The notes under the pieces are model-generated. The model searched no databases. It worked only from the letters and a program-made list of their open reading frames with translations, and was not told where the DNA came from. Of a DNA stretch of 64,000 bases, positions 20,139-27,552 are shown piece after piece. Position numbers and translations under genes: made by a program. Source of the DNA: Conexibacter woesei Iso977N. Lineage in GTDB: Bacteria > Actinomycetota > Thermoleophilia > Solirubrobacterales > Solirubrobacteraceae. Each line of letters starts with the position of its first letter. The stretch's first letter is position 1. The stretch spans positions 2,046,001-2,110,000 of the forward strand of contig NZ_AUKG01000001.1 of NCBI RefSeq assembly GCF_000424625.1, read 5' to 3'.

Positions 20139-21989
20139 ATGTGTGGCATCGTCGGATACGTCGGCCAGCGCTCTGCGCAGGACATCCTGCTCGCGGGGCT
20201 TCAGAAGCTCGAGTACCGCGGCTACGACTCCGCAGGGATCTCGGTCATCGCGGGCGACGAGATCGAGTCGGTCCGCGCGGTCGGCAACCTCGCCAACCTG
20301 CAGGCGGCGATCGACGGCACCGCCGGTGGCGTGGCGACCGCGGTGCGCCCGGGCTCGACCGGGATCGGCCACACGCGCTGGGCCACGCACGGGCGCGTCA
20401 ACGAGGAGAACGCGCACCCGCACTTCGACACGACCAACCGCGTGCACGTGGTGGTCAACGGAATCGTCGAGAACTACCTGGCCCTGAAGCACCGGCTCGC
20501 CGACATGGGCGCGCAGTTCACGAGCGAGACCGACGCGGAGGTCATCGCGCACCTGGTCTCCCACCATTTGGCGTCCGGGTCGCTGGTCGAGGCGGTCCGG
20601 GCCGCCTACGCCGAGCTCGAGGGCCACTTCGCGTTCGTCGCGATGACCCTGGACGAGCCGGACGTGCTGGTCGGCGCGCGCAAGGAGTGCCCGCTGATCG
20701 TCGGCCGCGGCGAGGGCGAGACGTTCCTGGCCTCCGCGATCCCGGCGTTCCTGCCCTACACGCGCAGGGTCCAGTACATCGAGAACGACGAGCTGGTCGT
20801 GATCACGCCGGAGGGGACGACGTTCCTGACGCCGGCGGGCGACGAGCTGGAGCGCCCGGTCGTGGAGATCGACTGGGACGAGGAGACCGCCGAGAAGGGC
20901 GGCTTCGAGACCTTCATGTTGAAGGAGATCCACGAGCAGGCCGACGCGATCGCCGAGACGATCGCCGACCGCACGGTCCGCGCCGACGGCGTCGACCTCG
21001 CCGAGGAGGTCTCCTTCGACGAGGCGCTGCTGCAGGACGTCAACCGGATCATCGTCGTGGCCTGCGGCACCTCGTACCACGCGGGCCTGATCGGGCGTTA
21101 CGCGATCGAGGAGTGGGCGCGGATCCCGGTCGAGATGGATGTGGCAAGCGAGTACCGCTACCGCAACCCGGTCGTCGGGCCGGGCGACCTCGTGATCGGC
21201 ATCACGCAGTCCGGTGAGACCGCCGACACGCTGGCCGCGATGCGGCTGGCGAGCGACCGCGGCGCGCGGGTCGTGGCGATCACCAACGTCATGGGGTCGC
21301 AGGCGACGCGCGACGCCGACGGCGTCCTGTACACGCGCGCCGGGCTGGAGATCGGCGTCGCGGCGACCAAGACGTTCGTCTGCCAGGTCGCCGTCATGTA
21401 CATGCTGGGCCTGCGCCTGGCCGAGCTGCGCGGGACGCTCGGCGCCGACGCGCGGACCCGGTTGGTCAGCGAGCTCAAGCGCGTGCCGCACGAGATCGAC
21501 TCGTTGTTGTCGTCCTTGGATCTCGACGGCGTCGCCGCCGCGCACTTCCAGCAGGAGTTCTTCCTGTACTTGGGCCGCCACGTCGGGCTGCCGGTCGCGT
21601 TGGAGGGCGCCTTGAAGCTGAAGGAGATCTCCTACATCCCGACCGACGCCTACGCCGCCGGCGAGATGAAGCACGGCCCGATCGCGCTGCTGGACGAGTC
21701 GACGCCGGTCGTGTGCATCGCGACCGACTCGCCGATCCTGGACAAGGTGGTGTCCAACGTCCAGGAGGTCCGCGCCCGCGGCGCGCACGTCATCGCGGTG
21801 GCGTCGGAGGGCAACATCGAGATCGGCGAGCACGCCGAAGAGGTCATCCGGATCCCGGCGATGGACTGGATGCTCCAGCCGCTGCTGGCCGTCATCCCGC
21901 TGCAGGTGTTGGCGTACAAGATCGCGCGGTTGCGCGGGTTGAACGTGGATCAGCCGCGGAACTTGGCGAAGACGGTCACGGTGGAGTAG
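20139..21989 (+). CDS. glmS: Glutamine-fructose-6-phosphate aminotransferase (isomerising)
   Basis: Makes glucosamine-6-phosphate from fructose-6-phosphate and glutamine. The 616-residue protein has the Ntn-type glutaminase domain with the nucleophile Cys directly after Met (MCGIVGYVG), and GIGHTRWATHG, GIVENY and SETDAEVIAHL downstream. The two SIS isomerase domains follow: VACGTSYHAGL and ITQSGETADTLAA in the first, PTDAYAAGEMKHGPIALLDE in the second. It ends AKTVTVE as usual for the family. No glmS ribozyme upstream. It is followed by a roughly 600-bp region holding a repeat element. Confidence 0.97.
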   Translation: MCGIVGYVGQRSAQDILLAGLQKLEYRGYDSAGISVIAGDEIESVRAVGNLANLQAAIDGTAGGVATAVRPGSTGIGHTRWATHGRVNEENAHPHFDTTNRVHVVVNGIVENYLALKHRLADMGAQFTSETDAEVIAHLVSHHLASGSLVEAVRAAYAELEGHFAFVAMTLDEPDVLVGARKECPLIVGRGEGETFLASAIPAFLPYTRRVQYIENDELVVITPEGTTFLTPAGDELERPVVEIDWDEETAEKGGFETFMLKEIHEQADAIAETIADRTVRADGVDLAEEVSFDEALLQDVNRIIVVACGTSYHAGLIGRYAIEEWARIPVEMDVASEYRYRNPVVGPGDLVIGITQSGETADTLAAMRLASDRGARVVAITNVMGSQATRDADGVLYTRAGLEIGVAATKTFVCQVAVMYMLGLRLAELRGTLGADARTRLVSELKRVPHEIDSLLSSLDLDGVAAAHFQQEFFLYLGRHVGLPVALEGALKLKEISYIPTDAYAAGEMKHGPIALLDESTPVVCIATDSPILDKVVSNVQEVRARGAHVIAVASEGNIEIGEHAEEVIRIPAMDWMLQPLLAVIPLQVLAYKIARLRGLNVDQPRNLAKTVTVE

Positions 21990-22150
21990 CGGCGCGCGCC
22001 GCGCTCTGCGCGGCTCGCGCGTCGGTGGCACGACGCGGCGGGCGGTGGCGCAGGTGGGGACTCGTTGCGTTGAGGGTGCTGCGGCGCGGCGGCCGGGGTG
22101 TTCAGCGCGGCCGTGTTGAGGTGCCGCTCCGCGTGGCTTGGAGGGCATCG

Positions 22151-22276
22151 ATGGGAGAGTCGTTTGGTGTGGTGCCGCCGTTGGCGGTGTGGCTGGGCGT
22201 TGGTGGTGCTTCCGGGCGCGGTTCGGGGCCGAACGGGTGGGTCGGCGGCAGTTGGGTGTTCTCGGCGAACACCTAA
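22151..22276 (+). other. 41-codon frame in the left arm of the repeat
   Basis: The ATG at 22151 opens a frame ending in TAA at 22274-22276, a rare stop in this genome. Its product begins MGESFGVVPPLAVWLGVGG and resembles the peptide encoded by the opposite arm (22363-22467). The matching may simply reflect the DNA repeat. No promoter or ribosome binding site is evident, so translation is doubtful. Confidence 0.25.
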
Positions 22277-22282
22277 CTGCCG
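22246..22282. repeat. Hairpin A inside the repeat element
   Basis: A 16-bp stem with one G-T wobble (CGGCAGTTGGGTGTTC against GAACACCTAACTGCCG) and a 5-nt loop TCGGC. It spans the stop of the 41-codon frame. Possible terminator or mobile-repeat terminus. Confidence 0.7.
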
Positions 22283-22329
22283 TTGACTCTTCGGGGTCCC
22301 GATTCGGGGCCGAATTGGGGCTTCGGCGA

Positions 22330-22378
22330 GGTCAACGGTGCATTTGGGTCCTATGCGAACCCCTATGCACCGTTGACC
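22330..22378. repeat. Hairpin B inside the repeat element
   Basis: A perfect 14-bp stem (GGTCAACGGTGCAT against ATGCACCGTTGACC) closes a 21-nt loop in which GGGT and ACCC can pair again. It marks the inner end of the right arm, as hairpin A marks that of the left. Confidence 0.7.
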
Positions 22379-22467
22379 CTTTCGTTCGCCCCCGAACTTC
22401 GCCCCGAGGCACCACGAACGCCCAGCCACACCGCGAACGCCGGCGCCACAGCAAACGACTCTCCCAT
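22363..22467 (-). other. 34-codon frame in the right arm of the repeat
   Basis: The minus-strand ATG at 22467 opens a frame ending in TAG at 22365-22363. The product begins MGESFAVAPAFAVWLGVRG, matching the left-arm peptide at most of its first 24 positions. Probably a by-product of the inverted repeat; a small repeated gene cannot be excluded. Confidence 0.22.
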
Positions 22468-22580
22468 CGATGCCCTCCAAGCAACGCCCCGCACCCTCAC
22501 CCACACGGCCGCGCTGAACACCACCCACCGCACGCGCCGCAGTACCACCAACCCAGCGGGCCAACCGCCAACGAGCCCAC

Positions 22581-22594: not shown

Positions 22595-22938
22595 ATGAGC
22601 GGCGTCGGCCTGGACCTTCTGGAGATCGAGCGGTTGGAGGCGGCGCTGGAGCGCCGGCCGTCCCTCGCCGCGCGGCTGTTCACGGAGGCTGAACGCGAGT
22701 ACGCCGCGGCGCGGTCGCGGCCGGGGCAGCATCTGGCCGCGCGGTTCTGCGCGAAGGAGGCGGTCGCCAAGGCGCTGGCGTTGGATGCGTGGTCGTGGCA
22801 GGACATCGAGGTCGTCTCGACGCCCGAGGGCGGGCCGCCGCGGGTCGTGCTGCATGGCGCGCTGGCCGGGCAGGGGCACGTGATCGATGTGTCGCTGACG
22901 CACTCCCGGGGAACGGCCGGGGCTGTGGCGGTCGTGCG

Positions 22939-22942
<4 letters not shown>
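22595..22942 (+). CDS. acpS: Holo-[acyl-carrier-protein] synthase
   Basis: Transfers 4'-phosphopantetheine from CoA to acyl carrier protein. 115 residues, typical of the small trimeric AcpS class. It has the GVGLDLLEIERLEAAL start with metal-binding Asp and the catalytic FCAKEAVAKAL segment around residues 50-60. It ends with the usual VSLTHSRGTAGAVAVV. The TACGCT hexamer supports ATG 22595. The stop overlaps nnrD (ATGA). Confidence 0.94.
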
Positions 22943-26104: not shown

Positions 26105-27552
26105 GCGAAGCGGCACTGGAAGCGGTCCGGGGCGCGCTGGCGGGCGCCGAGGCGTGGGTCGTCGGGGGCGCGGTCCGCGACGAGCTGCTGGGCCGTGACG
26201 TCAGCGACGTCGATGTGGCGGTGGCGGGTGACGCGAAGCCGCTGGCGCGCGCGCTGGCGCGTGCCTCGGGCTCCGGCTCGGCCTCGTTCCCGCTCAGCGA
26301 CGCCTTCGGCGCCTGGCGCGTGATCGGCCCCGACCAGGCCTGGCAGGTCGACCTGATGCCCCTCCAGGGCGACGGCACCCTGGCCGACGACCTCGCGCGC
26401 CGCGACTTCACCGTCAACGCGATGGCGCGCCCGCTGGGCGCCGCTCCCTCCGGCGACGGCGGTGCCTCCGGCGGTGACCCGCTCGCCGCCGTCGTCGACC
26501 CCTTCGGGGGCGCGGCGGACCTGCAGGCGCGTCGCCTCCGGATGGTCGCGCCGCGCGCGTTCGCCGACGACCCGCTCCGCGTCCTGCGCCTCGCGCGCTT
26601 CGCCTGCGAGCTGGGCTTCGCGCCGGAGGACGAGACCGTCCGGGTCGCCGCGCAGCACGCCGCCGCGATCGAGCGCGTCGCGGCCGAGCGCGTCTTCGCT
26701 GAGCTCAAGCGCGTCATCGCGAGCGACCGGGTTGTTGAAGGTCTCGAGTTGATGGACTCGCTCGGCCTGACCCCGCACGTCCTGCCCGAGCTCAGCGGGC
26801 TCCGCGGCGTCGAGCAGAACCGCTACCACCACCTCGACGTCCACGACCACACGCTCGAGGTGCTCGCCGAGACCGTCGCGTTCGAGCGCGGCGACCGCGT
26901 CCTCCTCGACGATCCCGAGCTGGACCGGCGCATCCGGGCGTTCCTGGCGCAGCCCTTCTCCGACGAGATCACGCGCGGGACCGCGCTGCGCTTCGGGGCG
27001 CTGCTGCACGACGTCGCCAAGCCCGAGACCCAGGCCTTCCACGACGACGGGACCATCCTCGGCTTCCCCGGCCACGCCGACCTCGGAGCCGACCGCTCCC
27101 GCGCGACCCTCACCCGGCTGAAGGCCTCCGAGAAGCTCCGCGCGCACGTGGCGCTGCTGGCGCGCCACCACCTCGGCCTCGGCTACCTGGTGCACAAGGC
27201 GCCGCTCGACCGGCGCACCATCCACCAGTACTTGACCAAGACGTCGCCCGTCGAGGTCGACGTGTCGCTGCTGTCGATCGCCGACCGCCTCGCCACCCGC
27301 GGCCGCAAAGCCGACGAGGCCATCACCAAGCACCTCGCCATCGCCCGCATCGTCCTACCGGCCGCCCTCGACTTCGCCTCCTGGCGCGCCCAACCACCCC
27401 TCCTACGCGGCGACGAACTGGCCACAGCCCTCAACATCAAGCCAGGCCCCTCCCTCGGCGCCCTTCTGGCCCAACTCGACGAAGCCCGCTACGCCGGCGA
27501 GATCACGACACCCGACCACGCCCTACAACTCGCGCGCGAGCTGGTCGGCTAG
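26101..27552 (+). CDS. CCA tRNA nucleotidyltransferase / poly(A) polymerase with HD domain
   Basis: 483 residues of the class II nucleotidyltransferase superfamily. The head domain has VVGGAVRDELLGRDVSDVDVAVAG (residues about 20-43, with the GG and DVD catalytic motifs) and RRDFTVNAMA. The RNA-binding neck/body follows (DPLRVLRLARFACELGF), then an HD-type phosphohydrolase region (YHHLDVHDHTLEV near 241-253, LLHDVAKPET near 301-310). CCA-adding and poly(A) functions cannot be told apart by eye. The GTG start overlaps alr; the stop shares CTAG (27549-27552) with the convergent peptidase. Confidence 0.88.
   Translation: MSEAALEAVRGALAGAEAWVVGGAVRDELLGRDVSDVDVAVAGDAKPLARALARASGSGSASFPLSDAFGAWRVIGPDQAWQVDLMPLQGDGTLADDLARRDFTVNAMARPLGAAPSGDGGASGGDPLAAVVDPFGGAADLQARRLRMVAPRAFADDPLRVLRLARFACELGFAPEDETVRVAAQHAAAIERVAAERVFAELKRVIASDRVVEGLELMDSLGLTPHVLPELSGLRGVEQNRYHHLDVHDHTLEVLAETVAFERGDRVLLDDPELDRRIRAFLAQPFSDEITRGTALRFGALLHDVAKPETQAFHDDGTILGFPGHADLGADRSRATLTRLKASEKLRAHVALLARHHLGLGYLVHKAPLDRRTIHQYLTKTSPVEVDVSLLSIADRLATRGRKADEAITKHLAIARIVLPAALDFASWRAQPPLLRGDELATALNIKPGPSLGALLAQLDEARYAGEITTPDHALQLARELVG

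Follow-up and report, generated by a model that had tools for sequence, protein, structure and literature searches.

A dispersed REP-like composite palindrome in Conexibacter and hairpin-bracketed AbiEi_4+DUF559 nuclease genes

Repetitive extragenic palindromes (REPs), with the related bacterial interspersed mosaic elements (BIMEs) and REP doublets forming hairpins (REPINs), are the repeats most similar to a palindromic element that we analyzed between glmS and acpS in Conexibacter woesei Iso977N. The window, that is, the whole stretch of DNA analyzed, comprises 64,000 nucleotides (contig NZ_AUKG01000001.1, positions 2,046,001 to 2,110,000). As described in PMC3733652, REPs accompanied by a REP-associated tyrosine transposase (RAYT) are short, often paired palindromes with many intergenic copies near convergent 3' ends; those between convergent genes mostly lie <20 bp from both open reading frames, longer palindromes enclosing REP dimers have been described, and in REPtrons the cognate enzyme gene is bracketed by the repeat. 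The Conexibacter element is similar in each of these respects, but it has no unpaired GTAG or CGTC tag, its hairpins measure about 37-53 nt rather than 20-40, its shell is very large, and the bracketed enzyme is an AbiEi_4+DUF559 protein unrelated to the HUH transposases.

Partial likeness is also evident to other systems. Miniature inverted-repeat transposable elements (MITEs) are likewise non-coding, inverted-repeat, dispersed, and present or absent at orthologous sites; here, in contrast, the palindrome spans nearly the whole length. The AbiEi_4 domain of the nuclease recalls the AbiEi/AbiEii systems, and PADLOC AbiEi models match it; however, this nuclease bears a C-terminal DUF559 domain and is encoded by a stand-alone gene with matched hairpin ends. 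DUF559 is common among Vsr-like PD-(D/E)XK endonucleases, according to PMC12907096, and the nuclease shares with them this domain and a conserved putative active site, but here DUF559 is fused to AbiEi_4 and hairpin-bracketed.

We assign a probability of about 0.5 to the reading of the element as a REP/BIME-like composite, non-coding and dispersed, whose hairpins would have been spread by the nuclease instead of a RAYT transposase. The element is dispersed, lies at gene 3' ends and carries tip hairpins that differ between species; nuclease genes are bracketed by such hairpins, and nuclease similarity is correlated with hairpin similarity.

The composite element and its copies

The features of the locus are as follows (window coordinates).
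22074-22545, no strand: whole composite element (shell plus tip), an inverted repeat with near-full-length matches elsewhere in the genome; ends approximate
22097-22234, plus strand: left shell arm (arm-model match), closing with the palindrome GTTCGGGGCCGAAC at 22221-22234
22241-22287, no strand: inner hairpin B, from the fold; hairpin-model match 22240-22288
22302-22315, no strand: short palindrome ATTCGGGGCCGAAT, middle copy, between hairpins B and A; from the sequence, in a direct repeat
22330-22378, no strand: inner hairpin A, from the fold; best hairpin-model match 22330-22377; of the type that brackets a PhdYefM/ParE gene pair at locus L349
22384-22522, minus strand: right shell arm (arm-model match, opposite strand), opening with GTTCGCCCCCGAAC at 22384-22397
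20139-21989, plus strand: glmS, upstream flank outside the element; Pfam SIS and GATase (glutamine amidotransferase) domains
22595-22942, plus strand: acpS, downstream flank outside the element; Pfam ACPS domain

A sequence-only reading of the window had described a large imperfect inverted repeat of about 430 bp (22097-22522) with exact 20-nt outer ends, and this observation is confirmed. In an inverted-repeat search the arms 22131-22287 and 22331-22487 are 78% complementary over 157 nt, and the outer arms 22097-22116 and 22503-22522 match exactly over 20 nt. Of the exact blocks, the longest has 31 nt (22136-22166 / 22452-22482) and not the 29 nt first reported, and an additional one covers 18 nt (22184-22201 / 22417-22434). 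The palindrome also reaches further out than was claimed, with 22063-22088 and 22533-22558 pairing at 81% over 26 nt, and other genomic copies align across nearly all of 22074-22545. A direct repeat (22214-22247 / 22295-22328, 76%) covers the middle short palindrome; a palindrome of the form TTCGGGGCCGAA separates hairpins B and A, and the same form closes each arm. Folded as RNA, the element reaches -368.1 kcal/mol (z -28); 100 dinucleotide shuffles average -203.7 (standard deviation 5.9), none being as stable (0/100), and the strong inner hairpin claimed for each arm is real in this fold. The glmS-acpS gap, noted as unusually long, is at 605 bp the largest of the 62 gaps between 63 called genes in the window (second largest, 388 bp), and the Pfam domains support both flank names. 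Frames beginning MGESF can be read in both arms as claimed, their peptides matching because the arms form a palindrome; however, no gene was called between the arms in any locus examined, the gene caller being a codon-usage script of ours that was checked on a portion of the window.

To describe the dispersion we designate the source genome G000 and six congeners G001 to G006. A 441-bp query gave 66 matches in G000 in a nucleotide search. An arm model built purely from the sequences of 28 arms of two genomes gave at least 25 matches in G000, 37 in G001, 9 in G004 and 5 in G005, copy numbers being lower bounds from the best 150 candidates per genome, together with one weak match each in G062 and G067 and no match among the candidates scored in G002, G003 and G006. 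The element is therefore neither single-copy nor absent from relatives, and its arms are alike beyond chance. When 101 genomes were surveyed with a stricter filter (best 30 candidates each), matches were confined to G000, G001, G004, G005, G062 and G067; the single matches in G062 and G067 were not counted as elements, being weak, and the G062 stretch resembles coding sequence by eye. A nucleotide search of 61 genomes gave just four single weak matches outside G000 and G001, and an exact-pattern scan of named genomes gave 0 matches, near relatives perhaps lying outside that set.

We examined 16 loci in G000 and 24 in G001. The 25 arm matches of G000 make up 15 loci, and the sixteenth (L042) came from a separate search of ours, in which L046 gave no arm match. 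In G004, five of the seven contigs with arm matches were examined, one of them (L101) giving no arm match on re-search, and in G005 all five of five were examined; both assemblies are incomplete (G004, 68% complete). The orthologous glmS-acpS spacer is without the element in G001 (136 bp), G005 (41 bp) and G002, the G001 spacer carrying a different palindrome instead, a copy of the second family described below. By GlmS sequence, the closest named relatives are MAGs of Conexibacter sp. with 88-89% identity, on which basis the source is taken as a member of the Solirubrobacterales. The suggestion of a MITE-like element thus holds for the dispersion, the lack of a called gene inside and the absence from these orthologous spacers, but no target-site duplication was seen in the locus flanks, where the element ends are approximate, and no parent transposon with the same ends was recognized, no search for other transposases having been made.

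Several further observations concern individual loci. A stretch of about 222 kb in G001 (G001:C1:1321683-1544000) holds 8 of that genome's 24 shell loci. Two contigs terminate inside shells, L015 (G000:C2:1-223) and L127 (G000:C3:588638-588819), so the palindrome probably breaks assembly. Two convergent gene pairs have a shell in both of two species, namely L008 (G000) = L116 (G001) and L067 (G001) = L087 (G005); their flanking proteins are 79-84% identical, and each copy has the arm and hairpin types of its own genome. These two shared sites may be due to chance and were not used as evidence for shared insertion.

The two arms had also been read as head-to-head copies of one repeat. They are indeed homologous, but all 12 typed elements of G001 (12 of its 18 two-arm loci) pair one type I arm with one type II arm, so that the palindrome is an asymmetric unit, and the tip additionally holds hairpins that occur elsewhere too. 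In G000 the two arms of one copy are a better fit to each other than arms swapped between copies (8/10000 permutations, by arm type), but this fit is weak in G001 (829/10000).

The shells are concentrated at gene 3' ends. Among the G001 loci, 19 of 24 lie between convergent genes, 4 between codirectional and 1 between divergent genes; the 16 loci of G000 comprise 6 convergent, 8 codirectional and 0 divergent cases and 2 at contig ends. All four G004 loci with an arm match are convergent, as are four of the five in G005, the remaining one being one-sided. In spread 400-kb samples the background of convergent gene pairs is 50/351 in G001 and 51/356 in G000, giving an enrichment of P = 1.7e-12 for G001 (19/24) and P = 0.009 for the two-sided loci of G000 (6/14; binomial). 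Elements mostly start 0-30 nt past the stop codons in G001, G004 and G005. Ordinary convergent gaps have medians of 4 nt (G000) and 10 nt (G001), and overlaps are frequent in these samples, a 4-nt overlap of convergent genes being present in the window itself (27549-27552).

A second, unrelated palindrome family with the core GGATCGTYGTGGCTG was found in G000 (10 matches) and G001 (12 matches; examples are L334, L337, L342 and L272:10880-11015), with 0 matches in the five other congeners and 0 in the reversed control. Its outer stem is variable and compensating, 17 of 38 predicted pairs being changed on both sides. Four cores stand in tandem at 101-bp spacing in G001:C1:5412174-5412491 (L343, L345, L347 and L348), and convergent genes flank 11 of the 19 distinct copies.

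Tip hairpins and AbiEi_4+DUF559 nuclease genes

The shell is common to the species, but the hairpins at its tip are not. These hairpins, of about 48 bp at the tip of a shell of about 470 bp, are types A and B in G000, C and D in G001, and others in G004 and G005. Type D occurs at 10 sites in G001, 8 of them within shells, and type C at 13, 6 of them within shells; neither was found in searches of G000, G004 and G005, and reversed-pattern controls gave 0. A hairpin-model search of G000, with the best 150 of 1904 candidates scored, gave at least 90 matches on both strands, and in the wide sense of many intergenic palindromes near gene 3' ends the hairpins are REP-like. Among 14 A/B sites outside complete shells in G000, 7 are in convergent, 7 in codirectional and 0 in divergent gaps, and one of the 14, in L040, is in fact a nuclease gene's 3' end. 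An alignment of 12 G000 hairpins showed no conserved unpaired GTAG or CGTC motif, and none was seen by eye in the other hairpin types.

Two nuclease genes serve as type cases of the bracketing. Type B hairpins bracket a gene for a 304-aa protein in G000 (G000:C1:996367-997281), and a gene for a 318-aa protein in G001 has a D hairpin at either end, these being the two D sites not located within shells. The two proteins are 53% identical, and both have AbiEi_4 and DUF559 domains. The ATG lies inside the loop of the first hairpin in both genes. The stop codon of the G000 gene lies within the stem of the second hairpin, and in G001 the frame crosses the second hairpin and stops immediately after it. 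An ATG in the loop of the 5' hairpin was found in 7 of 22 nuclease genes examined.

A profile of the nuclease gave 29 matches in the seven genomes (G000 2, G001 4, G002 3, G003 2, G004 3, G005 5, G006 10); viral contigs searched for the nuclease gave none. The similarity of the two ends was scored for 26 of the 29, one partial and two weak matches being left out and two of the 26 having cut-off flanks. The ends of 13 of the 26 genes are more alike than those of all 388 length-matched control genes (maximum score 27), the other 13 being at or below this maximum, and 15 exceed the 99% mark of the controls. In a wider control, end similarity as high as in those 13 was seen for 4 of 1072 genes. 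All 26 proteins share, among other residues, D235, E246, D248, H253, D262 and R278, a plausible PD-(D/E)XK/Vsr-like set for a putative active site; a profile of two nucleases searched against Protein Data Bank sequences gave 3hrl_A as the best match (E = 0.019), which is suggestive at most.

Shell tips were compared with nuclease gene ends at 39 of the 49 loci having an arm match. Of these tips, 31 match an end of a nuclease gene of the same genome above all 388 controls, and 8 of the 39 exceed the controls with a nuclease gene of another genome. The cognate pairs are as follows.
Hairpin B, gene at G000:996367: tip-to-gene-end score 37, control maximum 22
L047 hairpin, gene at G000:746721: score 42, control maximum 39; by eye too
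Hairpin D, gene at G001:790744
Hairpin C, gene at G001:5689530
L078 hairpin, gene on G004:C571
L072 hairpin, gene on G005:C534

Further hairpin copies were found in spread samples for G006:513768 (two) and G000:746721 (one), each in its own genome, besides one 19-nt cross-genome match. Moreover, protein similarity and hairpin similarity are correlated (Mantel test, r = 0.488, 1/20000 permutations) among the 17 genes with a delimitable hairpin, a choice that may favor clean cases, and the correlation is also seen between genomes (r = 0.569, 6/20000 permutations).

Outside the genus, one plasmid record, from Tsukamurella tyrosinosolvens, encodes a protein related to the 304-aa nuclease at E<=1e-5 (28% identity over 92%). 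Its DUF559 gene has inverted 42-bp hairpins at both ends, 39/42 identical, with a score of 36 against the control maximum of 27. Copies of the hairpin occur in three records of this strain, at 3, 2 and 1 places; one copy sits between convergent genes, 8 nt from either stop codon, and another is in a divergent gap, and two weak partial matches were found in Sinorhizobium meliloti (E = 0.6). The plasmid is an independent, though single, instance of the same layout. Streptomyces plasmid matches were rejected: the two families opened are AbiEi genes beside AbiEii, and the one tested, the AbiEi gene adjoining AbiEii in S. canus, has no matched ends (score 9).

Candidate movers and alternative explanations

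If the hairpins were ordinary REPs or REPINs moved by a RAYT, the link with DUF559 would be secondary. The placement of shells and hairpins equals that described for REPs in PMC3733652, and G000 and G001 each have one RAYT-like gene (REP_Tyr_transpos, 60.6 bits, below the cut-off of 80). The ends of these two genes, however, do not match (scores 13 and 18, control maximum 27), which makes a RAYT a weak candidate mover of the G000 and G001 hairpins. The test is able to detect true pairs, since three RAYT genes of G006 (L104, L106 and L108), which are probably ordinary REPtrons, have matched ends with scores of 28, 29 and 41 and serve as a positive control; the RAYT gene ends of G003 score 10 and those of one G005 gene 11, the other G005 gene not being called. 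No RAYT match was found in G004, at 68% completeness, though shells are present there, and the 12 aligned G000 hairpins lack the conserved GTAG or CGTC at the foot. A RAYT gene bracketed by the repeat was thus found in neither G000 nor G001, but the sole RAYT-like gene found in G001 is followed, about 10 nt past its stop codon, by a degenerate A/B-like hairpin (L125:6632-6679; G001:C1:1466631-1466678), which leaves a residual doubt and keeps this explanation alive, although we regard it as unlikely. Selection by the host for a bidirectional terminator or 3' insulator of convergent genes, with repetition as a by-product, would account for the 3'-3' enrichment, the flush element ends, the convergent setting of many copies of the second palindrome family and the same-copy arm fit in G000. 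It would be compatible with spreading by the nuclease, and the two are not exclusive. As an explanation in its own right it is unlikely: the element is missing from the orthologous spacer in three congeners, no genome has more than 24 copies although the two genes of a convergent pair commonly overlap or are almost adjacent, no T-run was seen behind the hairpins in the sequence, same-copy fit is weak in G001, and the focal gene pair is codirectional.

AbiEi proteins bind inverted repeats ahead of their own operon, and the hairpins at nuclease genes might accordingly be operators for self-regulation, with the dispersed hairpins as decoys or regulon operators. The start codons found in 5' hairpin loops suit this explanation; however, the second matched hairpin sits at the 3' end of the nuclease gene and is partly coding in both type cases (the 304-aa and 318-aa genes), and the solitary copies in G000 are at gene 3' ends with 0/14 in divergent gaps, which renders it quite improbable. 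Least credible is a structured non-coding RNA that is itself functional; a structured RNA locus had also been offered by the sequence-only reading. Extreme folding energy and the fixed arm asymmetry in G001 would fit such an RNA, but Rfam gave 0 matches above the gathering cut-off in the window and 16 loci, and G.U-type and A.C-type differences are balanced in G001 (89 to 93) and slightly skewed in G000 (75 to 56); a strand preference this small or absent argues against an RNA made from one strand.

Spreading by the nuclease has its own difficulties. Eleven of the 26 nuclease genes fail the 99% control mark, and 8 of the 39 shell tips have no same-genome match above the controls, including both two-arm shells of G004. 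Type A hairpins bracket not a nuclease gene but a PhdYefM antitoxin/ParE toxin pair (G000:C4:161412-162128; L349:1913-2629; end similarity 43). G002, G003 and G006 have 3, 2 and 10 nuclease genes yet no arm-model matches, and the shell arms are not clearly like nuclease gene ends (best 26, reached with a gene from a different genome; control maximum 22). Two further points against it are the codirectional genes at the focal site and the degenerate hairpin that follows the G001 RAYT-like gene. The tip hairpins therefore have a candidate mover and the shell itself has none, because its arms do not clearly resemble the nuclease gene ends, shells are absent from three nuclease-bearing genomes, and hairpin A brackets PhdYefM/ParE.

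A possible REPtron-like system

From sequence comparison, it is about an even chance that the AbiEi_4+DUF559 nucleases of Actinomycetota are the enzymes of an unrecognized REPtron-like system, each bracketed by, coevolving with and spreading its own hairpin, which would settle at convergent gene ends and nest in larger palindromes, the glmS-acpS element being an example. The nuclease, combining a winged-helix AbiEi part with a Vsr-like PD-(D/E)XK domain, would recognize its hairpin as folded or cruciform DNA and cut DNA at the hairpin or at the target. By analogy with what is proposed for RAYT on REPs, cutting may then lead to copying of the hairpin to new sites. Convergent-gene junctions and older palindrome tips would be tolerated or preferred landing places, and the composite might, as a guess, end or insulate transcription both ways for the host.

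In the open-licence literature, preprints excluded, we found no paper pairing REP terms with DUF559 or AbiEi and none on DUF559 with an inverted repeat; papers on AbiEi with hairpins or mobile elements were off-topic by title, and by title and abstract start none of the DUF559 papers was on repeats. To our knowledge, the spread of REPs is understood in part, and solely for those that carry the GTAG tag and are served by RAYT transposases. The hairpins described here bear no tag and are associated with a nuclease family of a different fold through gene bracketing, genome-specific matching and correlated evolution. If the nucleases do spread them, REP-like repeats would have a route that does not depend on HUH transposases, which might explain why certain REP families lack a known transposase.
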